DNA of 33,344 nucleotides. It comes from Pseudomonadota bacterium (GTDB lineage Bacteria > Myxococcota_A > Polyangia > Polyangiales > JAKSBK01). Made by a program: the position numbers and the translations under genes. Shown piece by piece: positions 3,905-21,406 of this stretch. The notes under the pieces are model-generated. The model ran no database searches and was not told the origin of the DNA. It saw nothing but the letters and a program-made list of their open reading frames with translations. The stretch's first letter is position 1; each line of letters opens with the position of its first letter. The stretch lies in NCBI GenBank assembly GCA_022361155.1, contig JAKSBK010000006.1, positions 1 through 33,344 on the forward strand, read 5' to 3'.

Positions 3905-5350
3905 TTGGCCCTCATGCAGTCTAGTGTAAGACAAGGTCAGGCAACAGCCCGTTTGGCAACACAGCGAGGCCCACACGGGCACGCGCTTGCGTTCCAGTTG
4001 ATCAAGAACTTTCCAACAAAGCTCCTGGGATCGCTCGCTCGTCGCCTCGGCGCTCTGCGCCGGGCGAAGCCGCTGTGGACACGCTGGGCCGACTGGTTTC
4101 CGCTGACGCCCTTGGGCCTGCTGTTTGTGGCCGGCGCCGCCTTCGTTCTTCGCGTCATGGCCCACGCGCAGCTCGACATGGTGCTGTTGGTGGTCGGGTA
4201 TGCGGGCTTGGGACTGGGCGCGCTGAGCTTGGCCGCCGTGGCCCTGGGAGCGCTCGGACTCAGGTGGCGGCTGCGCCGGCAAGAGGCGAGCGAGGCCGAG
4301 CCGCTGTTGGCCGAGACCGCGGCGAGCCTGCCTACGAGCTTCGAGCTGCCCGCCTTGACCTGGCTGCCGCTCCTGCACCTCGACTGGCAATGGCTCGAGC
4401 CCGAAGGCGTAGAAGTGCAGCCGGAAACGAGCGCCGCTCGCCGAGCAGAGCAGGTGAGGTTCCAGCGCAGGGGCCAGTTTCGCCGGACAGTTCGACGCAT
4501 CGTGGTCAGCGACGTGTTCGGGCTGGCCGCGCTCGGCCTCAGGCAGCAGGCCAGCCTGGCGCTCGATGTCCTACCCCACCTGGGCAAGCTCGCGCGTACT
4601 CCGGTGCTGCGCTCGCTCAGTGGTGGCGACGACCTGCCGCATCCCATGGGAGTCGAGTCCGGGGACCGGCTCGAGCTGCACCGTTACGTCCCGGGGGATC
4701 CGGCGCGGTTCATTCACTGGAAGGCCTATGGGCGCACGCGAAAGCTCATGATTCGCAAACCCGAGCGTGCCCTGGCTCAGGCTCAACGCACCGCGGGCTA
4801 CTTGGTGGCGGGGCCTTTGGACGAGGCGAGCGCCGCCGTTGCGCGAATGGCCCTGGAGCGCAACCTTCTTGGCCGAGATTGGGTCTTCGGTAGCGACGAG
4901 GACCCCTTTCCCGTGACCCGGCTCGAAGCCGCCCTGGCGACCCTGATGCGTTCGGGCGGCCTGCACGAACAAGGTGCGCTGGGGCTCGAGGAGTTCCTGC
5001 GCCAGGCCGAGCGCAGCGGCCCGGTGAGCGCGGTCGTGTTCGTCCCCGCGCAGCCGGGGTCGTGGCTGGATCGGGCCGTCGCGGCTTCGCGCAAGCCCGG
5101 TCGCACCGTGCGCTTCGTCGTCGGCGTGGACGGCATCGCCTCGGCAAGCCAGCCAACCCATGTGGCACGGCTGCTCTTGTTGCCGCAAGCATCGGGCCAC
5201 ACCCCCGCGGCGCCGCTACGCGAAGTGCTGCGCAGGCTCGGCGAAACGCGCTGCCAGGTCAGCATCTACGATCGTGTTTCGGGACGCCAGCTCAGCGAGC
5301 TTCACCTGCGCGATCAGGGTGGGCGCCAGGGCGTATCGGGGGGAGCGTGA
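3905..5350 (+). CDS. DUF58 domain membrane protein
   Basis: A 481-aa protein. Two hydrophobic helices (about residues 69-85 and 92-118) anchor it to the inner membrane. The DUF58 signature follows: GDRLELHRYVPGD at 253-265, then RFIHWKAYGRTRKLMIRKPE at 268-287, which matches the family motif Y-x2-GD-x2-R-x-IHWK-x2-AR. DUF58 proteins are usually encoded with MoxR ATPases and transglutaminase proteins, as here, and act in envelope assembly or maturation in ways not well defined. The first possible start is TTG 3905, with GGGGGA 6 nt upstream; ATG 3914 and TTG 3998 are alternatives. The stop overlaps the next gene's start by 4 bp (GTGA), implying translational coupling. The family call is firm. 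Confidence 0.88.
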   Translation: MALMQSSVRQGQATARLATQRGPHGHALAFQLIKNFPTKLLGSLARRLGALRRAKPLWTRWADWFPLTPLGLLFVAGAAFVLRVMAHAQLDMVLLVVGYAGLGLGALSLAAVALGALGLRWRLRRQEASEAEPLLAETAASLPTSFELPALTWLPLLHLDWQWLEPEGVEVQPETSAARRAEQVRFQRRGQFRRTVRRIVVSDVFGLAALGLRQQASLALDVLPHLGKLARTPVLRSLSGGDDLPHPMGVESGDRLELHRYVPGDPARFIHWKAYGRTRKLMIRKPERALAQAQRTAGYLVAGPLDEASAAVARMALERNLLGRDWVFGSDEDPFPVTRLEAALATLMRSGGLHEQGALGLEEFLRQAERSGPVSAVVFVPAQPGSWLDRAVAASRKPGRTVRFVVGVDGIASASQPTHVARLLLLPQASGHTPAAPLREVLRRLGETRCQVSIYDRVSGRQLSELHLRDQGGRQGVSGGA

Positions 5351-7533
5351 ACGCTCGCATCAGGTCCTCGGAAGCAGACGAGCGCAACCTCACCCGAGTG
5401 CTGCGGTTTGTGGTGTACCTGCTGGGGGGCCTCGCTTTTGCACTGCCCCTGACGCTGCCCTATGTCGCTCTCGGGGCAGCGCTGGGCGCTGCAGCCGGCT
5501 CGGAGCTCGGCCTGCGGCTGGCACGCTCGCGCTGGCGGCTGCACGCCATCGTGGCGGCTGCGGCGGCAGGATCCGGCCTCGTGCTCGTGCTGCGCGCGGC
5601 GCTCGTGGGCAGCGCCACGCTCGCCGCTAAGCTCGGGCCCACTTCGGCGCTCGCGGTCGGAGAGAGCATCGGGTTCGGCCTGGGTGCGCTGTGTGCCGCA
5701 ACGGGCCTGCGCGCCGCCGCGGCTCGCTGGCGCTCGATCGCAGTGCTCGAAGTCGCGTGCGTGGCGTTGATCTTCGCGCAGCTGGTCGCCGCCCACCGGC
5801 GGGGAGCGATCAACCGGCCCTTCGAGATCGCCGATCCGATCATCGAAGCGGGCGGCGATCCGGGGCTCGTGTTTCTCGGGCTCGGCGCCGTGACGGCGGC
5901 CGTCATGCTGCTCGTGCTCCTGAGCGAACGCAGCATCGCGCGCGCGGGCTTGCACATCGCGGTCGTCAGCGCCTTGGTGCTGTTTGTTGCGACCAGCACC
6001 GAACACTTCAACTTGTTCGCAAAGAAGCAACAAGATGCCTTGGGGCTGCGGGGAAAGCCCGACAAGACGAGCAAAGGCGACGAACGAGGAGGACGCAACC
6101 GCAACCGCAGCGGCAGCAATCAGCGAGATCTCGATTTTCGGGACAACTACCACGAGTCCAATCGCCAGACTCCGGTGGCGGTGGTGCTGCTGCACGACGA
6201 TTACTCGCCGCCGAACGGCATGTACTACTTCCGGCAAGGCGCCTTCAGCCAGTTCAACGGGCGCCGGCTGGTGCGCGCAACCCGACACGGCCTGGACTCC
6301 GACGTCGCCGCGAGCTTTCCGGCCGAGCCCACGACCGTGGCCGAGGTACCGAACGCCGAAGGGGATCGAGCGACCCTCGACACGACCGTGGTGCTTCTTA
6401 CCGACCACATGCAGCCTTTCGGTCTGGAGTCGCCGATCCGGATGGCTCCCGCACCCAACCCCGATCCCACGCGCTTCAGGCGCGCGTACAGGGTGACCTC
6501 GGCGGTATTGACCAGCGACGCCTTTGCGCTGCTGGGACGCGAAGCAGGAGGCGAGAAGCTCACCGGAGAAGCCCTCGACCATTACACCGGTCTGCCGGAG
6601 GACCCACGCTACGGGGCACTGGCACACGAGATCCTCGATCGGGTGGACCCTCATCTGCGACACGATCCCATGGTACGGGCGCTCGCCATCGCGTCGTACC
6701 TGAGCAAGCAGGGGGTCTACAGCCTGCGAAGTCGTCATGCCCGCGCGGCCGATCCCACCGCCGACTTCTTGTTTGGAGACAAGACCGGCTACTGTGTACA
6801 CTTCGCCCATGCCTCGGCATACCTGATGCGCGCCCTGGGCATGCCTGCCCGCGTGGCCACGGGCTACGTCGTGGACGAGTCCTCGCGGCAGGGCGGTTCT
6901 GCGATCCTGCTTTCCGGGGAAAACTCCCATGCCTGGCCCGAGCTCTACCTCGAAGGTACGGGCTGGGTGATCGCCGACGTGTTTCCGGAGCGCAGCCTGG
7001 ATGCTGCGATGCAGCCGCCCGATCCCGACTTGCAGCGCCTGCTCGGACAGATGGCACGTGGCGAGCGACCGCTGCTGCAGAGCGAAGAACGCAGCTTCAA
7101 GCCCATCCTGGCCTCGCTCCGCGAAGCATCGCTCGCCCTGGCTCGCTTCCTGCTCGTTGCACTCGTGCTCGCGCTGGCGCTGCTGTACGGCGTCAAGACC
7201 TGGCGTCGCATTGCGCCGAGCTTCGCCGGGCCAGGCGCCATGGCGCGCGTGGCGTACCGTGCGGAGCTCGACCGACTTGCCGAGCTGCAGCTCAGGCGGC
7301 GTGCAGGCGAATCGCGCGAGCGCTTCGCGACCCGGATCGAGGCTACCTGCCCGTCGTTCGCGGGTCTCACGCGCTGGCACCTGGCAGCCGCGTACGGCAG
7401 CCGGAGAAACCCCGAATCCTCCGAGCTGCAGCTCAGCGCTCACCGGGTGCGCAGCGAGCTGCGTCGCAGTGTGCCGTGGTGGCGTAGGATGCTTGGTATC
7501 TTGATCCCGTGGTCATGGCTGCAAAGTCGCTGA
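5347..7533 (+). CDS. Transglutaminase-like membrane protein (TgpA type)
   Basis: A 728-aa protein. The N-terminal 220 residues contain about six hydrophobic helices. A charged, flexible stretch follows (about 236-262, rich in Lys, Arg, Asn and Gly), then an extracytoplasmic domain with a transglutaminase core: Cys483 in TGYCVHFA, His528 in ENSHAWPEL and Asp544 in IADVFPE form the expected catalytic triad. One more helix (about 597-615) and a cytoplasmic tail close the protein. This is the layout of TgpA (DUF3488/transglutaminase/DUF4129) proteins. The start is GTG 5347, fused to the DUF58 stop (GTGA), with a G-rich Shine-Dalgarno-like run just upstream. The open frame reaches back to 5062 inside the DUF58 gene, but that part is out-of-frame coding. 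It is probably a peptide-acting enzyme of the periplasm; the substrate is unknown. Confidence 0.9.
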   Translation: MNARIRSSEADERNLTRVLRFVVYLLGGLAFALPLTLPYVALGAALGAAAGSELGLRLARSRWRLHAIVAAAAAGSGLVLVLRAALVGSATLAAKLGPTSALAVGESIGFGLGALCAATGLRAAAARWRSIAVLEVACVALIFAQLVAAHRRGAINRPFEIADPIIEAGGDPGLVFLGLGAVTAAVMLLVLLSERSIARAGLHIAVVSALVLFVATSTEHFNLFAKKQQDALGLRGKPDKTSKGDERGGRNRNRSGSNQRDLDFRDNYHESNRQTPVAVVLLHDDYSPPNGMYYFRQGAFSQFNGRRLVRATRHGLDSDVAASFPAEPTTVAEVPNAEGDRATLDTTVVLLTDHMQPFGLESPIRMAPAPNPDPTRFRRAYRVTSAVLTSDAFALLGREAGGEKLTGEALDHYTGLPEDPRYGALAHEILDRVDPHLRHDPMVRALAIASYLSKQGVYSLRSRHARAADPTADFLFGDKTGYCVHFAHASAYLMRALGMPARVATGYVVDESSRQGGSAILLSGENSHAWPELYLEGTGWVIADVFPERSLDAAMQPPDPDLQRLLGQMARGERPLLQSEERSFKPILASLREASLALARFLLVALVLALALLYGVKTWRRIAPSFAGPGAMARVAYRAELDRLAELQLRRRAGESRERFATRIEATCPSFAGLTRWHLAAAYGSRRNPESSELQLSAHRVRSELRRSVPWWRRMLGILIPWSWLQSR

Positions 7534-7575
7534 TGAAGCCCGCCCCCAAGACTCGCCGCTGAAGGACATGTGCCG

Positions 7576-8685
7576 ATGACGCATTCGCAAGCTGCACCGG
7601 TTGCCCCACCCGACCTGAGCTTCGAGGCCGCCCAGCGGGTCGTTCAACGACTCTCCGAACGCCTGCGGACAGCCGTCATCGGCCGGGACGAGGTGATCGA
7701 GCTCGTCCTGGTGGCGCTGTTGGCGGACGGCCACGTGCTGCTTGAAGACTATCCGGGCTCCGGCAAGACCACGCTCGCGAGGGCTCTGGGCGATTCGCTC
7801 AGCGACACCACCACCGACGCAATCGACGCGACCGACGCAATCGGCGCAATCGACGCACCGATCGTGCCCTTCCGGCGCATCCAGTTCACCCCGGACCTGT
7901 TGCCGAGCGATGTGACGGGGGCGACCGTGTTCGAACCGGACAGCAGCACCTTTACATTCAGGCGCGGCCCTATTTTCGCCCACATCGTGCTGGCGGACGA
8001 GATCAACCGAACCTCGCCCAAGGTGCAGGCCGCCATGCTCGAAGCCATGGCGGAAAAGCAGGTGACGGTCGACAACCACACCTACAAGCTCGACGAGCTG
8101 TTCTTCGTCGTTGCAACCCAAAACCCGCTCGACGTGGCGGGAACCTATCCCTTGCCCGTACCGCAGCTCGATCGCTTCCTCTTCAAGATCGAAATGACCC
8201 ACCTCGAGCGCACGGCGGAGCTCAGGGTGCTGGACAACTACCCCAAGACCAGCCTGGAGCTCGCTGCCGAGCGCCCTCGTGTCTCGCGCCAGGAGCTGCT
8301 CACCGCACGCGCTCTGATCCGCCAGCACGTGGCGCTGACCCAGCCCGTGCGCGAGGCGCTGGTCGACCTGGCGCGGGCCCTGAGGGATGATCCGCGCGTG
8401 CTGCAGGGCGCGTCCACACGCTCCCTGGTCTTGTTGATGCCGGCGCTGCAGGCGCGCGCTTTTGTCAACGGACGTGACTACGTTGCGCCCGAAGACCTGG
8501 AGCATCTGGCGCCGCGGGTATTCGCGCACCGCATGGAGTGCGTGCCAGGGGTGGATGACAAGGCCGAGGTCGTGCGATCCAACGCCGGTCCGGTCATGGA
8601 AACGCTCGCCAGGCTGAGCTTGAGGCGGCGCCCGGCGACCCCCGCGGCTCCGGCACCCAGCCTCGAGGACGACCGAAACCCGTGA
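7576..8685 (+). CDS. MoxR family AAA+ ATPase
   Basis: A 369-aa protein with the MoxR core. Walker A is YPGSGKTT (Lys64), Walker B is VLADEINR (Asp141, Glu142), sensor 1 is TQNP (181-184), and the family blocks RIQFTPDLLPSDVTG, MLEAMAEKQVT and PLPVPQLDRF are present. MoxR ATPases work as chaperone-like partners of nearby DUF58, VWA or transglutaminase proteins. The ATG at 7576 is chosen because GAAGGA sits 9 nt upstream; a GTG at 7570 is too close to it. An unusual Asp/Ala repeat insertion (about residues 81-95) sits between Walker A and the RIQFTPD block. It is the third gene of the cluster, 42 bp after the transglutaminase stop. The family is certain; the substrate is unknown. Confidence 0.95.
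   Translation: MTHSQAAPVAPPDLSFEAAQRVVQRLSERLRTAVIGRDEVIELVLVALLADGHVLLEDYPGSGKTTLARALGDSLSDTTTDAIDATDAIGAIDAPIVPFRRIQFTPDLLPSDVTGATVFEPDSSTFTFRRGPIFAHIVLADEINRTSPKVQAAMLEAMAEKQVTVDNHTYKLDELFFVVATQNPLDVAGTYPLPVPQLDRFLFKIEMTHLERTAELRVLDNYPKTSLELAAERPRVSRQELLTARALIRQHVALTQPVREALVDLARALRDDPRVLQGASTRSLVLLMPALQARAFVNGRDYVAPEDLEHLAPRVFAHRMECVPGVDDKAEVVRSNAGPVMETLARLSLRRRPATPAAPAPSLEDDRNP
7816..7860 (+). repeat. Five 9-bp tandem units inside the moxR-type gene
   Basis: Five consecutive 9-nt units based on gacgcaatc (variants gacgcgacc, ggcgcaatc, gacgcaccg) encode the triplet repeat D-A-I/T/P in frame. They sit at residues 81-95 of the MoxR ATPase, where related proteins run almost directly from the helix after Walker A into the RIQFTPD block. 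It looks like an in-frame microsatellite expansion. Confidence 0.85.
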
Positions 8686-8695
8686 GCAGCTCGAC

Positions 8696-10666
8696 GTGAA
8701 GAGCGGAGCCCGCTTGCCACTATGCGCCGCCCTCATGGGTCTCTTGGCTCAGCCTGTGGCCGCGCAGATCGAAAAGGTGCCCCTGACCCGCATCACGGGG
8801 CTCGACGCGAGCGAAGAGGAGCTCGCAGCCTGGAAACTGGTAGAAGCTCGCCGGCACATCAAAGCTCGCGAGCAGGCGGAGGCCATCTTGAAGGAGCGGC
8901 CCCGCTCGTTCGTCGCCCATCTCGTGCTGGGATTCGTCCACCATTACGGCGAAGCGGACTTCCCGAGAGCGCTGTACCACCTAAAGCTGGCCGAACAGCT
9001 GTTCGAGCGGCGTTTCGGCCATCGAGGGGGAGCCGATACATCGTGGCGCTGGCACGCGCAGCTGCTGCGGGAGCTCGCGTGGGCGCACGGTGACCTGGAA
9101 CATCACGCAAAGAAGCTCGAATACATTGCCAAATACAATTCCCTGTATGAGCCGGACATGATTGCCGAGCGCGCCTGGCCGCTCATGAAGCTCGGACGCT
9201 TCGAGGAAGCACGACTATCGGCCCGCCTTGGGCTGGCGACCGACATCCAGAGCCAGCGCAGCACGGCCTACAACGCGCTGTGCGCCATCGAGTTCGAGGC
9301 CGGCAACGACGGCAGCAGCTACGAAGCCTGCAAGCGCGCCGTGGACGCCTCGCAAGACGGCCTCGGTCCGGCATCGGCGGTTGACCTTACCAACCTCGCC
9401 GAGGCGGCACGCTCGCTGTTCCGGCTCGATGAGGCCGAGCGCGCCAGCCGCGAAGCCACCGAGGCGCGCCTTGCGTACTACGGCAACCCGTGGATGGAGC
9501 TGGCTGAGCTCTACACCCGGGAAGGACGCTTCGGGGAAGCCCTCGGGGCGCTGCGCGAGGTTCCACGCTACCGCGCGCGCAGACCTCCGTATGCGCGCAA
9601 TGCCGATCGCAACGAGTCGCGTCGCGCTCTGGCGGCCTTCTTGCTCCTGGCGGGCCGCGCTGACGCCGCTGCCCGCATCACGAGCAAGGCGCTCGTCGCA
9701 CCGGACCGGCGTGCCCACAACAGCCGCGATCCGGCCCAGGACCGGGTGATCGTGGCGCTGCTGGGGCGTCTGGCAAGGCGCATGCAAGCGAGCCTGCGGC
9801 TCGAGGCAGCGTCGATAGAACCCGTGTACAAGCGGCCGCTCGCCTGGCTCACGGCCGCTTGGCTGCGCTTCGAGGGTTGGCGCTCGGGAGCCTTGGCGGC
9901 TCGCTTGCTGTCGGACAACGCTCGCCTGGTGGGCACGTTCCAGATCGGCAGCGCCAAGAGCGCGGTGGCGCCGCCGTGGCTGGTGGGTGAGATCATCCGC
10001 ATCGTGGGTCCTGGAGTGGCAAGCGAGGCGCTGCGTTTGGCCCGAAAGCAAGACAAGCGTCCACCGGCGAACGCTTACTACGACGCCTTCCTGGCCGAAG
10101 CAGCGCTCGAAATGGGCGAGCACGAGCGAGCGCTCGACCTTGCCAGCAAGGCACTCGATGGCCTGCCTCGAGCCGAGAAGCTGCTGCGGGCCCGTACCCA
10201 GGCGCTGGCCGCACACAGCGCTTGGGAGCGGGGTTTGAGCGAAAGGGCGCGCGGCTACTACGACGGGGCGTGCCAAAGCGATCCCGGCGTGTTTCGCAGG
10301 CTCGAGCTGGCCCTGCCGGCACGCTTCGTCGTTCGGGGCGGTGGGCTCGCCGAGCGTGCGGCCGAGCTGCTGGCTCGGTCCCCACGACTTCGCAGCGAGG
10401 ACAACGGGCTCGCCGTGCACGTGCAGGGCGATGGCAGCGGCGGTCAGGTGTGCCTGGCCGCGTCCCACGGCGCCGTGCTGGGCTGCGCTCGCGTACGCGC
10501 GGATGGCAAGAGCGATGCGGATGCGCTTGCCCGGAGCCTTGTCGAACGCTTTCACGCAGAAGTATTCGCGCCGCGGGTGGACCTGGCGCAAACCGACATC
10601 CACTCGCTGGACGGCTCGACTGCGGTGGGACGCGATATGTTCCAGGTGCTTTTCGACCTGGAGTAG
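8696..10666 (+). CDS. Secreted TPR-like repeat protein
   Basis: A 656-aa protein. Residues 1-23 form a signal peptide (KSGAR, hydrophobic core, AQPVAAQ cleavage region). Much of the rest, to about residue 530, is alpha-helical with TPR-like pairs; the clearest segments are RFEEARLSARLGLA, RLDEAERASREATEA, RFGEALGALREV and EHERALDLASKALDGLP. The last 110 residues look like a separate beta-containing domain (VHVQGDGSGGQVCLAASHG, AVLGCARV) that I do not recognise. It starts at GTG 8696, 10 bp after the MoxR stop, so it is very likely co-transcribed. Related clusters often contain a TPR/VWA Bat protein; no VWA domain is seen here. It is probably a periplasmic scaffold for the cluster. The TPR fold is likely; the function is inferred only from context. 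Confidence 0.8.
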   Translation: MKSGARLPLCAALMGLLAQPVAAQIEKVPLTRITGLDASEEELAAWKLVEARRHIKAREQAEAILKERPRSFVAHLVLGFVHHYGEADFPRALYHLKLAEQLFERRFGHRGGADTSWRWHAQLLRELAWAHGDLEHHAKKLEYIAKYNSLYEPDMIAERAWPLMKLGRFEEARLSARLGLATDIQSQRSTAYNALCAIEFEAGNDGSSYEACKRAVDASQDGLGPASAVDLTNLAEAARSLFRLDEAERASREATEARLAYYGNPWMELAELYTREGRFGEALGALREVPRYRARRPPYARNADRNESRRALAAFLLLAGRADAAARITSKALVAPDRRAHNSRDPAQDRVIVALLGRLARRMQASLRLEAASIEPVYKRPLAWLTAAWLRFEGWRSGALAARLLSDNARLVGTFQIGSAKSAVAPPWLVGEIIRIVGPGVASEALRLARKQDKRPPANAYYDAFLAEAALEMGEHERALDLASKALDGLPRAEKLLRARTQALAAHSAWERGLSERARGYYDGACQSDPGVFRRLELALPARFVVRGGGLAERAAELLARSPRLRSEDNGLAVHVQGDGSGGQVCLAASHGAVLGCARVRADGKSDADALARSLVERFHAEVFAPRVDLAQTDIHSLDGSTAVGRDMFQVLFDLE

Positions 10667-10705: not shown

Positions 10706-13336
10706 CTAATTGCTAGCCGAGGCTGGCCGTCCCTTCTTGTGCTTCTTGCGGCGCGACTTGCGGCCCTTGCCCCCGTTGGAGCTCTTGTGGCCGGAGGCTC
10801 TCTTCGACTTCACCGGCGCGTCCCTGGCCTCGACTTCGGTCTCGGCCCCGACTTCGGTCTTGGCCTCGGCTCCGGTCTGACGGGCTTCGGCTTGGGGCGC
10901 GCCGGAAGCCTGCTCGCCGGCTCCACTCGCCACCGTCGCGGCGCCTGGCGACCCTGCGCTGGCCTCGCCCGGCGCTGCCGGCGCTGCAGCGGTGGGGCTC
11001 GGCTCCGGACTGCCGCTCGTCTTTGCCGCACCCCCGGCAGCTACGGCTGCGCCGCTTCCCTGTTCCTTGGTGCCGCCCAATCCCAATGCTGTGCGCCGGT
11101 CCGAGTACGCAGAATAGGCCAGGTACGAGCTGACCAGAAAGATGCCGAACGAGACGATCATGCCCATCGCGGTGAAATGATCGTCGGTCCAGGGCCAGAA
11201 CGTGGGCGCCATGCAGGTGAGCATGGACATCGCACAGGCCACGATGGCCGGTAGTTTGTGACGCTTCCAGAGCAGTCCGTACGCCAGCAGGAAACCGTAG
11301 TAGTAGCAGGTGAGCTCCGCCATGACCGGAATCAGGCCCGCACCGACGCAGGCCGCCACCCAGTCCTTTTCTCGCTCGACCGCGATGGCCACCATGAACA
11401 GCACGCTCGCGATCAGCAAAAGGAGCAGGGGCTTGCGCGCTGCGTAGGTCTCACGCTTGCGTTCTTTCCAATCGCCGAACGGATCGGACAAGTCGTCGTT
11501 GCGCATGCCGATGGCACGTTTGTCGAACTCGAACCCGATCGCCGTCTTCAGGCCCATGTTGTTGGTGAGCGGAGTATCCAGGTGCTTCGCGCTGTTCTGC
11601 GCGAACACGACCCACGAGCTCAGGCTTCCCGTGGCCACTGCGGAAAGCGGCATGAGCGCCGCCAGCGCGACCAAACAGCCTGCGGCAAAGCGTTTGTGCT
11701 CCGAAGATAGGACCCACCGGCGCTCACGCACCATGTACATCAGGGCCTTGAGGATCATGGCGATGACGACGAAGCCGGGGAAGATCCGCAGCAGCGCCGC
11801 GTAGGTCAGTGCGAGCCCGCCGCTGAACATCTTGTCCTTGCGCAGCAGGCACAGCCCGAGCACCAGGAACGCTATCCAGTCCATCCGCAGGTAGGCGCCG
11901 CCGGTCCAGAAGTAGCGCGCGGGGAAATTCGTACCCCACCAAAGCAACGCCACGCACATGCTGCGCCAGCCAAAGGCCCACCACACGGCCGCCCACATGC
12001 CGATCAGCAGCACGGAATCAACGATGCCCAGACCGATGATCGTGTTCCAGCTCTTGATCGGGAAGGTCGCTGCAAGCGCCCGGCCGGCGATGGTCCATAC
12101 CGGGGTGGCGTTGAAGCCGTGGTCGGTTTGCGACTGATCCCAGCGATCGGCCGGAAAGAAGCCGCGGAACTTGCGTATGTCTGCGCGAAACTCCTCCCAG
12201 CGCTCCTTGCTGAAGTGTCGCGTGCACAGCGTGGGGTCCTTGATGATGTGTTCGGTGCTGCCGAGCTCGTTGGTGACCAGGTTGCGCATCTTGCGGTCCT
12301 TGACGCGCTGCAGGTGTCCGTCGGCAATGTCCGCGGCGGTCGTGCATTCGTACAGGCGCGAGTACCCGAGCTCGGGCGCGTACTTTGCGCCCACGTAGTA
12401 GTGGTAGTGCTCCCAGATGTGAATGTAGTGGTCGTAGTGGAAGTGACCCAGATTCCAGAACAGCAAGAAGGAAAAGATGCCGAATCCTGCCAGCAAACCG
12501 TCGCGCAGCTTCTTGAGGTAGTGCGGGCGGCCGCGGCGGTGCAAAAGGAAAGTCCACAACAGCAGCAGGCCGCCGAGCCCGGCGGTCAGCCCTTTGAGGA
12601 ACACCACGACGCTGTCGTCGATGGCAGCCCAACCGGTCTTCTCGGGCGGAAAGGTCAGCGCGGGTGACCAGTTGGCCGGCTGGTTGCAGTAGGCCTGGAG
12701 CTCGGACACCGAGTAGAACTTGTCGCCGCCTTGCGGCATGACCCGCAGGTAGCGGACGGTTTCCACGCGCGGCAGCCGGCCCCAGCGCGTGCGCAGGCCC
12801 TGAGCGGGAAACACGGCAACGGCCGTCCACAGGGTCTGGTAGCTCTGCCCGTCCAGCGAACCCTGGATCTCGTAGATGTCGTTGTTGTCTCCTTGGACGA
12901 GCACCGCGCCAACATTGCGCGGGCGCCCAAAGTCGACCATCAGGCCGGTCGTCTCCTTTTTGAGCACGACGGCCGACGGCGACGACCAGAAGCTGCTTTC
13001 TACGGCGAGCACCCCGTCGGCGGCCACCCTGGGGTTGCCCTTGAGGCCGTCACCGTAGACGCGAGCTGTCTGAACCACATTGGTCGAGTCGCAGCCGCTG
13101 CTGGACCAGGCCCCGCTCGGCACGGGCGTCGCGGGCTGGGCGCCAGGCGAGCCGGGAGCCGGGGCTCCTTCTTTCTTGGCGGCCGCCGCGGCAGCCTCGG
13201 GGTTCGTGGCGGTTTGCTGCGCTCCAAGGGGCCCGCTGCAGGTCAGGACAGCAGCCGACGCAACGAGCAGATACTGTGCATAGAAACAGGTAGCGCGAGG
13301 TCTCTGCTGCGCCGCTTGTTTCGAGGACGTAGTCAC
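10706..13336 (-). CDS. F5/8-type C domain fused to GT-C-like membrane protein
   Basis: An 876-aa protein. Residues 18-40 are a signal sequence or signal anchor. An Ala/Pro linker leads to an F5/8-type C (discoidin) domain at about 82-217 (WSSP, LMVDFGRP, YEIQGSLDG, RYLRVMPQG, SVSELQAYC), a fold that usually binds carbohydrate or lipid. A polytopic part starts at about 243, with some ten hydrophobic segments. An acidic and aromatic motif (YDHYIHIWEHYHYY, residues 301-314) sits in the first large loop, where GT-C glycosyltransferases carry their acidic residues. Segments such as GGAYLRMDW and LLRIFPGFV recall the GT87/DUF2029 group. The tail (about 760-876) is Ala/Gly/Glu-rich and ends in a Lys/Arg cluster. 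The start is GTG 13336 with GGAAGG close upstream. It is last in a leftward operon, 91 bp after the barrel gene. The discoidin call is firm; the transferase role is inferred. Confidence 0.8.
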   Translation of the reverse strand: MTTSSKQAAQQRPRATCFYAQYLLVASAAVLTCSGPLGAQQTATNPEAAAAAAKKEGAPAPGSPGAQPATPVPSGAWSSSGCDSTNVVQTARVYGDGLKGNPRVAADGVLAVESSFWSSPSAVVLKKETTGLMVDFGRPRNVGAVLVQGDNNDIYEIQGSLDGQSYQTLWTAVAVFPAQGLRTRWGRLPRVETVRYLRVMPQGGDKFYSVSELQAYCNQPANWSPALTFPPEKTGWAAIDDSVVVFLKGLTAGLGGLLLLWTFLLHRRGRPHYLKKLRDGLLAGFGIFSFLLFWNLGHFHYDHYIHIWEHYHYYVGAKYAPELGYSRLYECTTAADIADGHLQRVKDRKMRNLVTNELGSTEHIIKDPTLCTRHFSKERWEEFRADIRKFRGFFPADRWDQSQTDHGFNATPVWTIAGRALAATFPIKSWNTIIGLGIVDSVLLIGMWAAVWWAFGWRSMCVALLWWGTNFPARYFWTGGAYLRMDWIAFLVLGLCLLRKDKMFSGGLALTYAALLRIFPGFVVIAMILKALMYMVRERRWVLSSEHKRFAAGCLVALAALMPLSAVATGSLSSWVVFAQNSAKHLDTPLTNNMGLKTAIGFEFDKRAIGMRNDDLSDPFGDWKERKRETYAARKPLLLLLIASVLFMVAIAVEREKDWVAACVGAGLIPVMAELTCYYYGFLLAYGLLWKRHKLPAIVACAMSMLTCMAPTFWPWTDDHFTAMGMIVSFGIFLVSSYLAYSAYSDRRTALGLGGTKEQGSGAAVAAGGAAKTSGSPEPSPTAAAPAAPGEASAGSPGAATVASGAGEQASGAPQAEARQTGAEAKTEVGAETEVEARDAPVKSKRASGHKSSNGGKGRKSRRKKHKKGRPASASN

Positions 13337-13427
13337 GATCCTTCCGCCGCGGGGACCCGGGCGGGTCGCCAACGCTGCCCGACATAGACGCTCGCCTCCC
13401 AAAGCGCAACTATGACCTCCGAGGGCG

Positions 13428-14267
13428 TCACAGCCTCACATACAGCGAGCCCCTCAGGTACGGGCCCGAGCGGGAGAGCGAACCGAGCTCGGCCGTGCGC
13501 GGCACGATCGCGTCCGGGGCCAGATCCGCAGGCTGCAAGCGCAGCGTGGTAGAGCTGGAAAGCAAGAATCCCGCCTCGAAGAGCAGGCCCGCTCGGGTCT
13601 GCCGCATGAACCTGATGCCGGCCCGGCCGAGCCACCCGGCAGGGGTCTCGAGCCTGGCTCCCAGACCGAGCATCGCTATCAACGCAGTGCCCTGGTCCTT
13701 GTAACGTGAAGCCGGCAGCGAGGGATCGAAAGGGCCCTGGGGCAAGACCGGAGCGTCGCCGCCGAGCCGGCCGAGCTGCATCCGGAGCAGGCTCGCGCCC
13801 AGACCCAACCGCAGCTCGGGCCAGAGCCACGCGGCGACTTGATGGCGCAGCGAAAGCGACGCGCTGAACGTGTGTGTGCGCAGGCGAGCCAGCTGCTGGC
13901 GCTGGAATTGCGCTTCGTCGGCAGCGAGCTTCCAGCTGAGCTCGACCGCGAGCACACTGTGCGTCGTGGGTCGCATCCCATCGTAGCCCACAAAGGCTCC
14001 GGCGTTCCTGGAGACATCGTCGTCGGAATACAGATCGAATCCGTGGCTCCCGATCTCGATGGCCTGGATTTCCAGGCCGAGTGAAAGCGGATTGCTCGAC
14101 TCGGTGCGCGCGCCAGGGCTTGGCTCTGGTCCGGCGCTCGGTCCAGAGGTCGACTGGCTGCGCGCAACAGGTGCGTGCAGCAGGACGGCCGTCATGCAGC
14201 ACGCCGCGCCCAGCGCGCGCGCAAGCCGGTGCTTGGGGACGCATGCTGGTTCGTCTGATCGGTTCAC
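13428..14267 (-). CDS. Probable outer-membrane beta-barrel protein
   Basis: A 279-aa protein. A signal peptide (KHRLARALG, a hydrophobic stretch, cleavage near VARSQ at about 34) leads into a short Ser/Pro linker. Alternating polar/hydrophobic strands rich in Leu, Arg and aromatics follow: HSVLAVELSWKLA, THTFSASLSLRHQVAAWL, PELRLGLGASLL, and a final RGSLYVRL ending in a hydrophobic residue, as barrel proteins often do. About ten strands can be guessed. GTG 14267 overlaps the upstream lipoprotein stop by 4 bp (GTGA), which sets the start and implies coupling; the frame stays open to 14546 inside that gene. It may provide an outer-membrane pore or anchor for the two propeller lipoproteins encoded before it. 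The barrel call is from pattern only. Confidence 0.7.
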   Translation of the reverse strand: MNRSDEPACVPKHRLARALGAACCMTAVLLHAPVARSQSTSGPSAGPEPSPGARTESSNPLSLGLEIQAIEIGSHGFDLYSDDDVSRNAGAFVGYDGMRPTTHSVLAVELSWKLAADEAQFQRQQLARLRTHTFSASLSLRHQVAAWLWPELRLGLGASLLRMQLGRLGGDAPVLPQGPFDPSLPASRYKDQGTALIAMLGLGARLETPAGWLGRAGIRFMRQTRAGLLFEAGFLLSSSTTLRLQPADLAPDAIVPRTAELGSLSRSGPYLRGSLYVRL

Positions 14268-15904
14268 GGCATGCCTCGCTTGGCGTCCAGCTCGATCGCC
14301 GTGTCCGGACCCCGCAACAGGTCTGCCAGCAGAAAGCCCCGCAGCGCGATCGCTTCGCCGCGAGCAGGTTCCATGCGATCGAGCAACGTCAGGTGACCCC
14401 CAAAGGTGTTGTGTACGACCGCAACGGTGGCTGCGGCCGGGGAAAGCAAGACCTGGGCGATGCTCGCATCGAGCTCGACCTGCTGGGCGTGAAAGCTGTC
14501 GAGATCCAGCATACCGAGCTGGCGCTGCCCCTTGGCTCCCACCCACAGTCGCGCCTCGTCGGTGTGGAAGCTCGTCTGAGCCAAGTCGAGGTGCGCGTCG
14601 ATGGGCGCGACCGTCCGGTCCTGCACCCGTAGCAGGCTAAGCGCCGGAGCCGGACCCTGACTCGAATGGTGCACGAGCAACACCACGCCTCGCTCGAGCA
14701 TCGGGACCACCCGCTCGACCGGCGCGGCCAGCCGCAGGGTTTCCAGGTTGCGACCTTTACGGGACTCGATCTGTTGGAGGCTGAGGAAGCTCAGCCAAAC
14801 GCTTCCGTTCCCGTAGAGCAGCGCCTCGGGCTTGCCCGAGTCGCGCCCGTCGTCGAGCATCAGCAATCGACTCGCCGCCGTCTCGAGGGCCACGCGCGTC
14901 GAGCGGCTCGATGCGGCATCGATCACCCACAGGTCGTTGCTGCCCGGCGACAGCACCAGCAGCTGGGCGCCCTCGGGCGAGCGGTACAGGCCCATGTCGC
15001 TGGGGGTACGCCCGGCGCCAACCTGGTTGATGGAGACGCGAAAGTCTCCGCGGGCCGACTCGGGGTCCTCGTGCAGCTGCAGGGCGTAGGCGTCGTTCGA
15101 CTGATTGCCGCGCACGTAGATGCGCGCATCGTCCACGCCGAACAGCACCTGTTCGGGGAGACTGGGGTTGCCTGCGGTGGTGAGCTGAACCGTGTGCTCG
15201 CTCAGCGTCTCGAGGTCGAGCAAGGTCACGTAGGAGTCAAACAAGACCACCGCCAAGGTGCGCGTGGTGCCCGCGATCGTCATCCCGGGCGAAAAGACCA
15301 CGCGACGCGGCGCTTCACCGAAGCTGCGCAGCGTGCGGCGGTGCGGGTTGTCCTCGGAGGGTTGCTGTTGCAGGTCGACGATCGCTATCTCGTTTCGATT
15401 GAACAGCAGCTGGCCTCCACCCGAGACGCCGCGGAAGTAGAGCAGGGCATAGCGCCCGTCGTGCGACTGCTCGATGGCATCGAACGGCGCTGCTATCTCG
15501 TAGCGGGCTCGCGGCGTGTTTCCTTCGACGCCCAGCACCGCGAGCTCGGCCGGAAGGGGGGCCGAGCCGGCTCGGGCCGGTCCGCCCGCACACACGACCA
15601 AGAGCTCCTCGGTTGCATCCGCGGCGCTTGTTGCGCGGTGCACGCTCAGCCTTGGCTCGAGCGGCAGATCGACCCGCTCGGTCCGTGGCTGTGGATCGGC
15701 GAGATCGAGGCGGTGGGCCACGTGCGAGGTTTGGTTGATGAACACGACCTGAGTGCCGAGCAGCGTGGCCTCGGCGTGAAACACTTGAGGCTCGTCGAAG
15801 AAAGGCGGGCGGTCACCGCAGCCGGCGAGCAACAGCATCCCGACCCCAACCCAGCTCCCAACACGGCACCGGGCGCGCGGGCGCAAAGGCAAAGCGTACG
15901 TCAT
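14264..15904 (-). CDS. Lipoprotein with WD40/YVTN-like beta-propeller
   Basis: A 546-aa protein. The lipoprotein signal is clear: Arg-rich start, hydrophobic core and LLAGC with Cys29. The mature part reads as a propeller of repeated strands with DGRYALLYF, RRVVFSPGMT, LAVVLFDSYVTLLDLETL, ARIYVRGNQ, SNDLWVIDAAS, RLLMLDDGRD and GMLDLDSF; this alternation of value, label and time-course-like phrases is typical of YVTN/WD40-type repeats. No catalytic residues are apparent. It lies 10 bp after the upstream lipoprotein gene and overlaps the barrel gene by 4 bp, so all are co-transcribed. The Shine-Dalgarno site before ATG 15904 is weak (GAGGCC). It is probably anchored in the outer membrane as a binding scaffold. 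Confidence 0.8.
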   Translation of the reverse strand: MTYALPLRPRARCRVGSWVGVGMLLLAGCGDRPPFFDEPQVFHAEATLLGTQVVFINQTSHVAHRLDLADPQPRTERVDLPLEPRLSVHRATSAADATEELLVVCAGGPARAGSAPLPAELAVLGVEGNTPRARYEIAAPFDAIEQSHDGRYALLYFRGVSGGGQLLFNRNEIAIVDLQQQPSEDNPHRRTLRSFGEAPRRVVFSPGMTIAGTTRTLAVVLFDSYVTLLDLETLSEHTVQLTTAGNPSLPEQVLFGVDDARIYVRGNQSNDAYALQLHEDPESARGDFRVSINQVGAGRTPSDMGLYRSPEGAQLLVLSPGSNDLWVIDAASSRSTRVALETAASRLLMLDDGRDSGKPEALLYGNGSVWLSFLSLQQIESRKGRNLETLRLAAPVERVVPMLERGVVLLVHHSSQGPAPALSLLRVQDRTVAPIDAHLDLAQTSFHTDEARLWVGAKGQRQLGMLDLDSFHAQQVELDASIAQVLLSPAAATVAVVHNTFGGHLTLLDRMEPARGEAIALRGFLLADLLRGPDTAIELDAKRGMP

Positions 15905-15914
15905 CTTATGGGCC

Positions 15915-17822
15915 TCACTTGCGTATCCGGCTGTTGAGCTCGAAACCCGTTACGGTCTGCGCCTCACCCGAGTTCCAGTGCACGAAGGTCACGCGTCCCT
16001 CGGGGTGCTCCTGACCCACGAACGCGTGCTCCGTGCCCGGCACCGCACCCACCGAAAGGGGAGGGCTGCCAAGCCGTGTGGTCGAAATCTGGAGGCTCTC
16101 GAGCGCGATGCGCTGAACCTCACGCACGTGCTGCAGATCGTTGCGAATCAGCACGAAAAGATGGCTGTTCGCGGGCATGACCGCGAAAGGCCCAACATCG
16201 GCTTGAGTCACCTGCAGCTTGACGAAACCGCTCGCGATGTTGAGCAGGCTGTAGGCAAACGACCGATCGATGACTTGGTCCGGGGTGAGGCCGGGCTCGT
16301 TCGGATCGGCCGGGTCGCGCGTGTGCACGATGAGCGCCGTTCGGGCGTCGGGTGCGATGGCCACGCCCTTGATGGGCTTGCGAAGCCGGACACCGCGAAC
16401 GGTGTCGGCCAGCGGATTGAGCTCGACGAGGCCGATACGCTCCACGGCAAAGGCTGTCGTGTACACAAGCGCCGAATGGTTGTCGGGCGTGATGCTAACC
16501 GAGCCGACGATGTCGCCTGCGAGCGGGATGCTGCGCACCAGACCGGGGTCGCTGAACCCGCTCGGAATTGGAATCCGCAGCAGCAGCTGGGGATCGCTCA
16601 GGACGGCCAGCGCGAACTCACCGCTCGGAGCCAAATCGAGATCGGTCACGGCCACCGGTTGCCTCGCCGTGGGCGTCCGTGACCTGCGCTGCGCCGAGTT
16701 GGGCGCGTCGGTCGCGTCCAGGCCTGCATCGAGCGGTTGCCAAGCGTCGCTGCGCGCATCGAGCTCGGCGTCCAGCGCCTGCACGGCATCGACGTGCGCG
16801 TCGCTTGCGGCGTCCGCGCCCGCGTCCGGGGCGACGGGAGGCGACGGCGCGGGCCCGAGCGCTCCGGCGACTTCACTCAGCTCGAGCGAGGTGACCGCAC
16901 CCGAGGACAGCTCGACCAGCCGCACCGTACTGTCGTGCTCGCGGCGAGCGATCGCGTAGCGACCGTCGTTCGTTATCGAGACGTCTTTGGAAAACGCGCC
17001 GGTGTCGGGCCCGAGCGGGATCAAGCGTGCGATCGAGGCTTGCCTGAGCGAGCCGAGCGGCAGCTCCGAGATGCCGTCTTCGGTAACCACGAATGCGGTC
17101 GAGCCGTCGTCGCTGAAATGCACCGAGAGCGGCCGGAAGCCCACGGTGACGTTGACCGCCTCCTCCGCACCCGGCGCCAAGGTTGCGACCGTGAGGTCCT
17201 GAAAGCTGCCCGTGGGATCACCGGGCCTGCGGGCATGGATGTCGAAGTACAGCACCGCGTGGCTCCCCGTGGGGCTGACCGCGATCCGGTTGCAGCCGGC
17301 AACCACAGGCAGCGTGTGTGTGGTCGTGCGGCCCTTTTCGGTACGCAGAACGGTCGCGTCGTCGGAAGCCACGTTGAGCACGATGGCCTGGTCGCCAGTG
17401 CCAAAGGTGCGCACCACCCGCGGCTTGTCGCCCGCCTCGACGATTTCGATCGCCAGCGAGCGCGCATCGATGACCGCCACCAAGTTGCTCTTCGGGTTGG
17501 CCACGTAGACCTGGTTTTCGCCCGCTTGCGGCTGCTCGAAATTGGTCGGCAGCTCGATCTCGGGCGGCCGTGGTGCCATCGGTGGGATCCCCGCTGCACC
17601 GCCAATGCCGAACCCTCCAGGAGCTCCGTGCGGGCCGGTCGGGGAGCCCCCGCCGAGGCCCGGGCGCGGTGCAGGCGTACGCGGATCCGCGTGCGCCGCC
17701 CCGGCCCGCTCCTCGGACGAACCGCAACCCGCAGCAAGCGCTGCGATCGCACCCAGGATCCAGGCTCCGCGCCGAGCGCAAGCCAACGGTCTGCCCGGGG
17801 CGGCCCCGCGGCCATTCTCCAC
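15915..17822 (-). CDS. Lipoprotein beta-propeller with Asp/Ala-rich insertion
   Basis: A 635-aa protein, counted from GTG 17822. The signal has ARRGAW, then a hydrophobic core and LAAGC with Cys33. A Gly/Pro-rich linker precedes a YVTN-like propeller: NQVYVANPKSNLVAVIDARS, GCNRIAVSPTGSHAVLYFD, STAFVVTEDGISELPL, VSITNDGRYAIA, VSITPDNHSALVYTT, GVAIAPDARTALIVHT. Between blades lies an insertion of about 45 residues dominated by Asp-Ala (encoded at about 16703-16836). It resembles the downstream lipoprotein, so the pair may be an old duplication. It is first in the operon. The start is uncertain: the frame is open to 18062, and ATG 17981 or GTG 18062 would give a long non-signal-like N-terminus, so 17822, preceded by a G-run, is preferred. 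Confidence 0.78.
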   Translation of the reverse strand: MENGRGAAPGRPLACARRGAWILGAIAALAAGCGSSEERAGAAHADPRTPAPRPGLGGGSPTGPHGAPGGFGIGGAAGIPPMAPRPPEIELPTNFEQPQAGENQVYVANPKSNLVAVIDARSLAIEIVEAGDKPRVVRTFGTGDQAIVLNVASDDATVLRTEKGRTTTHTLPVVAGCNRIAVSPTGSHAVLYFDIHARRPGDPTGSFQDLTVATLAPGAEEAVNVTVGFRPLSVHFSDDGSTAFVVTEDGISELPLGSLRQASIARLIPLGPDTGAFSKDVSITNDGRYAIARREHDSTVRLVELSSGAVTSLELSEVAGALGPAPSPPVAPDAGADAASDAHVDAVQALDAELDARSDAWQPLDAGLDATDAPNSAQRRSRTPTARQPVAVTDLDLAPSGEFALAVLSDPQLLLRIPIPSGFSDPGLVRSIPLAGDIVGSVSITPDNHSALVYTTAFAVERIGLVELNPLADTVRGVRLRKPIKGVAIAPDARTALIVHTRDPADPNEPGLTPDQVIDRSFAYSLLNIASGFVKLQVTQADVGPFAVMPANSHLFVLIRNDLQHVREVQRIALESLQISTTRLGSPPLSVGAVPGTEHAFVGQEHPEGRVTFVHWNSGEAQTVTGFELNSRIRK

Positions 17823-18069
17823 CCCCAACCCCCCGACATCTGTGTCGCGCTCGGTTGCGACCCTGGCAACACTTGCCCCCTGGCACGCAGGCTTTGCGTC
17901 CCTGCTGCGCCCTGCACCTTGCCGCTGCCGCCTGTGCGTACCCGGCCAACACCCACGATCCCGCTGTGCTCTTGCCTGCATGACGCTACCTGAAGCGAGA
18001 AGTATGCCACACTGGTCGCCGCAGAGGTCCGGGCACGCACGAGCTACAGACTCGGTGCCCACTCGGGAG

Positions 18070-18093
18070 GGATCGGCTCCCTCGAGCCGATCC
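18070..18093. promoter_or_regulatory. Perfect inverted repeat in divergent region
   Basis: Arms GGATCGGCTC (18070-18079) and GAGCCGATCC (18084-18093) flank a 4-nt CCTC loop. The stem is perfect over 10 bp. There is no U-run on either side, so an operator or an mRNA leader hairpin is more likely than an intrinsic terminator. Confidence 0.4.
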
Positions 18094-18153
18094 GGGTTCG
18101 GCCCTGTCTTCGGCCGGGAAAGAGGCAGGCAGCCGGGGACGGCGATGTGTTAG

Positions 18154-18233
18154 GGAGTGTTTTCGACATCGGACCGAGAGCCCACGATTCCGAGGGTCTC
18201 GGGATCGACGGGAGCATCTTGAAGACACTCTCC
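18154..18233. repeat. 80-bp imperfect palindrome
   Basis: Outer arms agtgttttc (18156-18164) and gaagacact (18221-18229) pair fully if one G-U pair is allowed. Inner arms ccgagagccc (18174-18183) and gggtctcgg (18194-18202) pair over nine positions with one bulged G and a 10-nt loop. The result is a two-tier stem, as in REP-like elements or structured RNAs. It occurs once in this window. Confidence 0.4.
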
Positions 18234-18397
18234 AGTACCTGGGGCTCGAAGCCAGTGCCGCGTTCTTCACGCTTTCCAACCAGGGAGCGCGCACCAGGTA
18301 GGGCTCGGCCGACCCCGAAGGCACACGTGCCTGCCGGTGGCGCCGGGTCAGGCATGCTTTCGTTGGGAGAGCAGCGGCGCCTGCACAGGGCCTTTGC

Positions 18398-21300
18398 ATG
18401 GCGAACCTGACGCGCCGACGCGAAGCCGGAGGACGGCCCGCGCCGCCGGACGCAGTACGAAGCCGGCCGGTGGTCGCGCGGCGTTCGGCCGGCTCGACCG
18501 CGGCAGGTGTTGTGCTTGCGGCGCTGGGCGCGTTCCTGTGCGCGTTGTCCGCTCCGCTCTGGTGGTTTGGCAGCGGAATACTGGTGGCGCTGGCTACCGG
18601 GTTGTGGGTGTCCACACGGCCCCGGCATGCGGAGCTGCGCGCCTGGTGGCTGGCGCCGCGCCACCTGGGTCCCCTCGAGATCGTCCCGCTCAAGACGATG
18701 CTCGAGCTCGGCTCGCTGGCGCTGCTGGTGTGCATCAGCATCCAGATGCTCGGCGAGCTCGCGGGCGGCGATCGCCCGATCTCTCACGATCATCCCGTCC
18801 ATTACTTCAAGGCCTGGCAGCTCGAGCGCCATCTCGTGCACGAAGGTCGCGTGCTCGGTTGGACGCACCGCTGGTTCGCGGGCTACCCGGTCAACTACCT
18901 GTACCCGTTTCTCGGCGACCTGTGGATCAACGCCGTCCGCTGGCTGGGGTTCGGCTCGCTGAGCCTGAGCCAGGCGTACGGGATCGGAATCTGGCTCTTT
19001 TATCTGTTCACGGGCTACGCGCTTTACCGCTACGGCTCCGAAGCGGCTGGGCGTGCCGTAGGTCTGCTCGCAGCGCTGGCGTTCATGACGGATACCTCCG
19101 CCTTTCGCGAGGGCGGCTGGACGTACGCGGTCCACTTCGGTGTTTGGCCCCAGAGCCTTTCGCTTGCTTTCGGCCTGCTGGGGCTCTCGCGTCTGCCCGC
19201 GCTGGTGAGCGGGCGCAGGTTGGCCCCCGTGGCGGGCTTCGGGCTGTGCCTTGGGCTCGCGTTGCTTGCGCACCCCGTGCAGCTCTTGCTTTTGCCTCTC
19301 GTTGTGCTGCTGGCAGGGGTCGCGGCGGCTTTTTCCCCGCATGCTCGGGTTGGCGCGGCGCTGCTGCGAGTCCTCGTTGGGACCCTGCTGGCCCTGGTCG
19401 TTTCGAGCGCCTGGCTGCTGCCTTTCCTGTCAAGCCGCCGCTTCGCCTCGTCCATGGGTCTGTGGTGGAAGAGCACCCACGAGCTTGGCTACGATTTGAT
19501 GCAGCTCGATGTCTTCGAGGGCACGCTCGGCTTGGTGCTCGCGTTCGGTGTGCTCGGAATTGTCCTCATGCTGCGCAGCCGCGACGTGCTGCTGCTGTTC
19601 ACGGCGCTGATCGCCCTGTGCGTTCCCGTCCTCTTCGGCAGCACGTTCGTGGACGAGTTTCACTTGCCGGCGCTGTCGAGCTCCTTGCTCAAGGTGCAGT
19701 TCGTACGCATGTCCACGATGGTCAAACCGTTCTGGTTCGTGGCGGCGGCCTACCTCGTCGTCGCAGTCACGCGTGGCCTGCCACGGCTGCGGCCACGATC
19801 GGCGAGCAGCGAGGCGGATCCGGGCGCCCGTGGGACCCCGGAAGGGACACAAGAGTCCGGCTTTGCGAAGCTGCCCGTGTCCAGGCGGACCTCGAGTCGG
19901 GCGCAGCCCGCGCCGCGCTACATGGCGGCGGCCTTTGTGCTAGCCGTCCTTTTGAGCCCGATCGCGCTCGCCTTCGGGCAAGCCTACTGGAGCACGCACG
20001 TCGAACGCCATCTCGAGCTCGCGAGTCAGCGACCCTACGGCCGGGAGCGTCGTGCCCTGGTGCGCTGGGCCCGCCAAGCCCTGCCATCGGATGTGTTCTA
20101 CCGCGTCGCCCTCGTCCCCGCCCACAAGCACGATCACAGCTTGATGGATCTGGCGACGCAAATCGACAAGCCCATCTTCAAGACAGGTTTCACCCCCTGT
20201 TCCAACTTCGTGTTCAAGCTCGGGGGCTACGATCGCGAAACCCTGGAAAGCGTCAATGTCCGCTACGCCATCGCGCAGCGGCGCTTGCCGGCGAGCGATT
20301 TCGAGCTGTTGCGCGAGTTCGGGCCCCTGAGGTTCTATCGCTTCAAAGGCTGGAGGCCGGAGCCCTTCCGAATCCTGCAGGGTGGTGGTCGGGTCGACGT
20401 GCTGCGCTTTGACGACGAAGAGATCGTGTTGCGCGCGCACCGGGGTGCGTTCGGCATGCTGCGCTTGAACGTTTCGTACTTCCCGCGCTGGCGCGCCTAC
20501 CACGACGCCAAGCGCATCCGCATCATGGCGAGCTCGCTCGACAACAAGGCTCGGCCAAGCGCGTTCATCACCACGGAGCTGCTGCCGGGCAGCTACCGGT
20601 TCGTGTTCGAGCGTCATTGGGTCGACCATCTGGCCGCGGCGCTCTCGGGGCTGGCTTTGCTCTTGGTCCTGGCCCTGTGGTTGGCCGACCGGCGGCCAGG
20701 CTCGTTTGCGTGGCTGAGCAGGCCGCTTGCGTGGCTCACCGAGAAGGCCGAGCGCCTTTGCGAGCCTGCCTGGGCGCGCGCGCGCTTGGCGGCAGGGCTG
20801 TGCCTGGCAGCCGCGTTGCTGTTGGTCGGGGTAGCGCTGGCGCTGTGGCAGCCGGCTATCGACCTCGCGCCTTCGGGCAAGCGCGAGCGGGTAAGGCGGG
20901 TGCGCTACGATTTCGTCGAACGCCTGGCGCACGCCGAGGCGCAGGTGCGCCACCGCAAGAGGAAGCGTCGCTGCCAGGCGCACAAGGACCAGTTCCTGTG
21001 CCCGAATCGACGCGGCACCTTCTTGCCCGGCCAGTACGTCGCTTCCGAGCCCGCCACCATCGAGGAATACACCATGGTGCGCTGCGTTCGGGCCACCCCC
21101 GACAGCGGAGGGACACTGGAAATCAGCTTCCGCGACGTTCCCCGAGGCGAGGCACTGGTGGGCTACTACGGCGTTCCACACGCGTCCGAGATCGGCCCTC
21201 GGGAATCGTTTGATTTCAGCGTCCGAGTCGACGGCAGGCGGATACACCGCGGCGCTGCCAGACCCAACACCGGCCGCCGCTGGCTAATCGAGAAGCTCCA

Positions 21301-21406
21301 ATCGAACAAGGCACGCAAGCGAGCCGACGTGACGCTGGCCATCCACGCGAAGCACGTCCGCCGGCACAGGTTCTGCTTCAACCTGCAGATGGTGGACTTG
21401 CATTAG
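18398..21406 (+). CDS. Large GT-C-like membrane protein, PTPS-related type
   Basis: A 1002-aa protein. After a basic cytoplasmic N-terminus come roughly 11-13 hydrophobic helices (from about 33 to 530, plus ones near 750 and 805). The first periplasmic loop has SHDHPVHYFKAWQL (129-142) followed by RWFAGYPVNYLYPFLGDLW (158-176), the hallmark of the '6-pyruvoyl-tetrahydropterin synthase-related' membrane domain (PF10131), which belongs to the GT-C-like integral membrane glycosyltransferases; the pterin name is historical. A periplasmic beta-rich region and a basic C-terminal domain with three Cys follow. ATG 18398 has ACAGGG about 9 nt upstream. It is monocistronic and divergent from the discoidin/propeller operon. 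It probably transfers sugars from lipid-linked donors outside the membrane; the acceptor is unknown. Confidence 0.82.
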   Translation: MANLTRRREAGGRPAPPDAVRSRPVVARRSAGSTAAGVVLAALGAFLCALSAPLWWFGSGILVALATGLWVSTRPRHAELRAWWLAPRHLGPLEIVPLKTMLELGSLALLVCISIQMLGELAGGDRPISHDHPVHYFKAWQLERHLVHEGRVLGWTHRWFAGYPVNYLYPFLGDLWINAVRWLGFGSLSLSQAYGIGIWLFYLFTGYALYRYGSEAAGRAVGLLAALAFMTDTSAFREGGWTYAVHFGVWPQSLSLAFGLLGLSRLPALVSGRRLAPVAGFGLCLGLALLAHPVQLLLLPLVVLLAGVAAAFSPHARVGAALLRVLVGTLLALVVSSAWLLPFLSSRRFASSMGLWWKSTHELGYDLMQLDVFEGTLGLVLAFGVLGIVLMLRSRDVLLLFTALIALCVPVLFGSTFVDEFHLPALSSSLLKVQFVRMSTMVKPFWFVAAAYLVVAVTRGLPRLRPRSASSEADPGARGTPEGTQESGFAKLPVSRRTSSRAQPAPRYMAAAFVLAVLLSPIALAFGQAYWSTHVERHLELASQRPYGRERRALVRWARQALPSDVFYRVALVPAHKHDHSLMDLATQIDKPIFKTGFTPCSNFVFKLGGYDRETLESVNVRYAIAQRRLPASDFELLREFGPLRFYRFKGWRPEPFRILQGGGRVDVLRFDDEEIVLRAHRGAFGMLRLNVSYFPRWRAYHDAKRIRIMASSLDNKARPSAFITTELLPGSYRFVFERHWVDHLAAALSGLALLLVLALWLADRRPGSFAWLSRPLAWLTEKAERLCEPAWARARLAAGLCLAAALLLVGVALALWQPAIDLAPSGKRERVRRVRYDFVERLAHAEAQVRHRKRKRRCQAHKDQFLCPNRRGTFLPGQYVASEPATIEEYTMVRCVRATPDSGGTLEISFRDVPRGEALVGYYGVPHASEIGPRESFDFSVRVDGRRIHRGAARPNTGRRWLIEKLQSNKARKRADVTLAIHAKHVRRHRFCFNLQMVDLH

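Follow-up and report, generated by a model that had tools for sequence, protein, structure and literature searches.

Five neighboring genes, encoding two GT-C-like membrane proteins, two propeller lipoproteins and a small outer-membrane barrel, raise the question of whether they work together or have merely come to lie side by side. They are found in a stretch of 33,344 nucleotides (referred to here as the window) that makes up contig 6 of a 608-contig draft assembly of the order Polyangiales. The original prediction took all five for one system that assembles or displays a surface sugar or glycoprotein, and its genes, coordinates and spacings were recovered unchanged when re-derived from the sequence (Table 1). 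Along the leftward run LP1, LP2, barrel and GTC1, consecutive genes are separated by 10, -4 and 91 bp, and GTC2 is divergent from these four genes. LP1, LP2 and the barrel (17822-13428, here called module A) sit between GTC1 and GTC2 (module B). No paper on this gene combination appeared among the literature titles listed, and a promoter and terminator scan of the locus gave a result near chance level. The window also contains a familiar set of genes on the plus strand (3905-10666; DUF58, a transglutaminase with DUF4129, a MoxR-type ATPase and TPR genes, all in the same direction), which is convergent with GTC1 and ends 39 bp from its 3' end. Farther away, two small overlapping genes (32066-32939, plus strand) look, by eye only, like a nucleotidyltransferase/HEPN toxin-antitoxin pair.

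Table 1. The five genes of the locus, with window coordinates
Gene	Module	Position	Strand	Length (aa)	Features
LP1	A	15915-17822	-	635	Propeller lipoprotein
LP2	A	14264-15904	-	546	Propeller lipoprotein; 4-bp overlap with the barrel gene
Barrel	A	13428-14267	-	279	Small outer-membrane barrel; signal peptide, barrel at C-terminus
GTC1	B	10706-13336	-	876	Discoidin/CBM32-like domain plus polytopic GT-C-like region
GTC2	B	18398-21406	+	1002	PTPS_related-type GT-C; periplasmic beta domains

A direct search of the order's 77 genomes found LP1 and LP2 in one and the same set of 36, always adjoining and on one strand, the exception to this pairing being an additional lone LP1 copy in G034. The small barrel gene follows them in many loci, often with the identical 4-bp overlap, and across the phylum, 126 of 379 genomes match the LP2 profile. 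GTC2, searched for in the 77 genomes of the order, has close homologues in seven genomes of one family (f10). In all seven, the LP1-LP2 operon lies on a contig other than that of GTC2 (module A versus GTC2: C391 versus C71 in G015, C291 versus C277 in G028, C616 versus C845 in G038, C17 and C15 versus C137 in G034, C422 versus C2 in G022, C233 versus C635 in G043, and C404 versus C953 in G009); these genomes are drafts in which the true distance between module A and GTC2 is unreadable, and the contigs of G022, G028 and G034 span 36 to 115 kb. G005, G020 and G026, among others, carry module A but give no GTC2 match, and the reverse holds for G011, G029 and G035, in which GTC2-like genes are found but module A is not. 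The pairing of LP1 with LP2, their location on other contigs in f10 and the spread of LP2 over the phylum indicate that module A is a widespread operon, separate from GTC1 and GTC2. Its position between these two genes is, among the genomes seen, peculiar to the lineage of the window. The leftward run is, then, a conserved three-gene operon followed by an independent gene, GTC1, although, with so short a spacing, module A may be cotranscribed with GTC1 in this strain. Two variants of the module A loci were also seen. In three genomes of family f12, LP1 is tandemly duplicated upstream of LP2 (L091, L092 and L093), and in five f10 loci, a DUF1015 gene adjoins LP1, identified by Pfam in L082 (E 5.7e-98) and by clustering in L081, L084, L085 and L087.

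These distributions bear directly on the idea of a single system in which transferases, lipoproteins and barrel jointly assemble or display a surface glycan. It drew its strength from four closely spaced genes in the same direction and from a set of proteins that together span the envelope. However, the different contigs in 7/7 f10 genomes with GTC2 and the occurrence of either module in genomes lacking the other make it improbable, and as a conserved system, the five-gene set is not supported: in no other genome examined do LP1, LP2 or the barrel lie beside the two GT-C genes. The associated idea of sugar transfer stands for GTC1 and GTC2, a conserved pair in which GTC2 has a predicted GT-C fold, but nothing ties the propeller and barrel genes to glycans. 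It is even less likely that the adjacency is an assembly artefact, with two contigs of different origin joined. An assembly of 608 contigs and an arrangement found in no other genome would be compatible with such a join, but both flanks match other contigs of the same genome in their tetranucleotide profiles (r = 0.94-0.96, the 3- to 4-kb module segments being too short to test well), and each module is common within the order. We favor, with moderate confidence, two functionally separate conserved modules that adjoin by chance in this lineage, module B being a periplasmic glycosylation pair and module A having merely landed between its two genes.

The linkage of GTC1 to GTC2 could be tested in six of the seven f10 genomes (the G009 contig breaks off within GTC2), and each of the six has a GTC1 orthologue adjoining GTC2 and facing away from it. 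The two genes form a conserved pair, the f10 orthologues having identities of 42-56% by segment for GTC1 and 41-44% for GTC2. At L163, a locus from a different family of the class, a GTC1-like gene lacking the discoidin domain adjoins GTC2 and is convergent with it. The occurrence of GTC1 was assessed by local searches of the retrieved loci, plus two further assemblies. The latter carry divergent GTC1 homologues (L043:9887-12313 and L044:4392-7001; 33-34%) near a DnaK-like gene. Within the stretch seen, neither has GTC2, so the pairing may not be obligatory.

Structure prediction bore out the GT-C assignment for GTC2. The model (pLDDT 78) has a GT-C fold, and its best PDB matches are AglB, STT3, ArnT, Emb and PglB (E 1e-7 to 5e-4), which include oligosaccharyltransferase (OST) catalytic subunits, with modest TM-scores (0.15-0.34 by query length and up to 0.55 by target length). 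The last C-terminal beta domain is CBM51-like. Proteins in other genomes match this region only (L018, L019, L020 and L023; query residues about 829-996), which indicates that the domain also exists outside GTC2. R437 is nearly invariant, as are D131 (in 14 homologues) and H135 of the first outer loop; judged by alignment rather than by superposition on the catalytic site, these residues fit the GT-C features set out in PMC7801869. The first annotation had been more specific, placing GTC2 near PTPS_related (PF10131), a GT-C clan family of unknown function (PMC7801869). That family was matched by 7 of the 14 GTC2 homologues (best E 5.4e-8), while the window protein itself stays below the cut-off (8.7 versus 26.4 bits) and differs from the family in its extra periplasmic beta domains.

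GTC1 has a more unusual architecture, with a signal-anchor-like N-terminus, a periplasmic discoidin/CBM32-like domain (about residues 84-217, window 12686-13087), a polytopic GT-C-like region and a low-complexity C-terminal tail. Taken alone, the window protein gives an F5/8C score of 21.9 bits, under the Pfam cut-off of 28.2, and PF00754 is matched by all eight aligned homologues (best E 1.3e-10). The N-terminal domain of the GTC1 model (pLDDT 77) matches CBM32 structures (Foldseek E 2e-5, TM by target 0.66-0.74), and the best 50 Foldseek matches of the model are exclusively discoidin/CBM structures. With both a sequence match and a predicted jelly-roll fold, the discoidin domain of the original prediction is genuine. 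Its companion claim, the GT-C nature of the membrane half, found weaker backing. This part has no match to a Pfam GT family even at E 10, and six GTC1 homologues left GT87 (PF09594) unmatched at E up to 10. Run against PDB sequences, the profiles of GTC1 and GTC2 returned nothing useful, the lone match from one of them being a designed protein. An hhalign comparison of GTC1 with a small GT87 alignment reached E 0.001 (GTC2 and controls, 0.14-0.73) but a probability of 20%. E309, in the first outer loop, is E or D in every homologue covering the position, including L163, and this long loop carries a DHG.N motif. Together, these features weakly suggest a GT-C-like or GT87-like membrane half. Alternatively, GTC1 might be no transferase at all but a polytopic anchor in the membrane, or an acceptor-binding subunit, whose discoidin domain offers the glycan to GTC2, which would be the sole enzyme of the pair. 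The missing GT family match would fit this, as would L033 and L035 (both from a single genus of family f3), where a GTC2-like gene and a sulfatase-fold gene are grouped with a discoidin protein, the discoidin domain being on a separate single-span membrane protein. However, the conserved E/D309 and the DHG.N motif, the GT87 alignment, weak as it is, and the L163 protein, which has the membrane part but no discoidin domain, make this alternative unlikely, and we retain GTC1 as a candidate second transferase. A discoidin membrane protein was also found near a GTC2-like gene in L038.

The surroundings of module B in relatives point to glycan metabolism. In five of the six f10 loci (L026-L030), a gene for a sulfatase-fold membrane protein is located directly upstream of GTC2, between GTC2 and GTC1. 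The motif STRLSFP is found in L026, L027, L029 and L030, and a Thr aligns with the nucleophile position in L027. A canonical formylglycine (FGly) sulfatase was ruled out for this gene, since Thr takes the place of Cys or Ser at that position. Thr nucleophiles are typical of phosphoethanolamine and phosphoglycerol transferases. The gene is absent from the window, where no remnant was found, and from the sixth locus (L025, G022), and the best homologue elsewhere in the genome of the window is just 34% identical. In L025, an MBOAT gene and then a GDSL gene come after GTC1, a pairing as in AlgI/AlgJ-type acetylation systems. Other GTC2 neighbors are a GT2 with DUF2304 (L027), a Gfo/Idh oxidoreductase (L028, with a clustered relative in L029) and an epimerase with a GT2 (L029). 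Among more distant GTC2 homologues of the class, GT2 synthase genes are found beside 15 of 30 loci versus 0 of 20 control loci (p = 8e-5, a value that overstates the case, since the GTC2 loci are interrelated, kinship was uncorrected and the controls were module A loci). Of these 30 loci, two adjoin a sulfatase-fold gene and one (L163) a GTC1-like gene, most having neither.

Several known systems offer a frame for module B. GT136 pentofuranose systems are three-component periplasmic glycosylation systems (PMC11127046), and CBMs contact the acceptor glycan in EmbC, AftD and GT136 (as summarized in PMC11127046). Module B resembles the GT136 systems in having a putative GT-C enzyme that bears a CBM-like domain and works outside the inner membrane, and in the polyprenyl-phosphate sugar synthase linked to many related loci. 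In contrast to them, it pairs two GT-C-like proteins, often with a sulfatase-fold enzyme, the synthase of its relatives is of the GT2 type, and no GT2 synthase or flippase gene was recognized by reading the window. The mycobacterial arabinofuranosyltransferases EmbC and AftD likewise join a GT-C fold to acceptor-contacting carbohydrate-binding modules, but they belong to a different phylum, Pfam gave no family-level match to them for module B, and GTC1 carries its discoidin domain at the N-terminus. On the simplest reading, and by analogy with EmbC, AftD and GT136, module B probably transfers sugar from a polyprenyl-phosphate donor to a CBM-held envelope glycan. A GT2 synthase encoded elsewhere would make the donor, from which GTC2 would pass the sugar to an envelope glycan or glycolipid, and GTC1 would act as a second GT-C-like enzyme, its discoidin/CBM32 domain holding the acceptor glycan. 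In the relatives, a further, probably phospho-type, group could be added by the membrane enzyme of the alkaline-phosphatase superfamily whose nucleophile position is Thr.

For module A, the identification of LP1 and LP2 as propeller lipoproteins was confirmed. LP1 matches TIGR03866 and TIGR02276, and its profile matches hydrazine synthase beta and 6-phosphogluconolactonase-like structures (1.3e-7), while the LP2 profile matches the surface-layer propeller 1l0q (1.2e-5). The lipobox cysteine is invariant in 11 sequences of LP2 (C29) and nearly invariant in LP1 (C33). The outer-membrane barrel held up in the main, by its signal sequence and barrel-type homologues: OMP_b-brl is matched by 2 of the 11 aligned sequences (best 1.6e-8), and the window protein itself matches nothing. 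A propeller lipoprotein acting with a barrel is also known from BamB in the BAM complex. The closest likeness is perhaps to BtuB-BtuG, a barrel/propeller-lipoprotein complex (PMC10404256), since module A also encodes a propeller lipoprotein with an outer-membrane barrel. However, this is an analogy only: module A encodes a pair of propeller lipoproteins, and its barrel, at about 280 aa, is below the size of a TonB-dependent transporter. It is plausible that LP1, LP2 and the barrel form a stable complex, which would be located in the outer membrane.

Tentatively, and with less confidence than in the separation of the two modules, both may be described more fully. Module B would be an undescribed periplasmic glycosylation machine of Myxococcota, with two GT-C-type proteins, one fused to a discoidin lectin domain, and a Thr-nucleophile membrane enzyme of the alkaline-phosphatase superfamily, building and capping a surface glycan. 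Module A would be an equally undescribed outer-membrane complex found across the phylum, made up of a small barrel and the two propeller lipoproteins. Even though the five-gene system fails, both modules are conserved, and one speculative system is replaced by two testable ones. Module B lends context to PTPS_related, which it connects to a GT2 synthase, a lectin domain and a transferase-like alkaline-phosphatase-superfamily enzyme. As LP2 is present in a third of the sampled genomes of the phylum, a single knock-out in a tractable myxobacterium could supply a function for many genes that are still unnamed.
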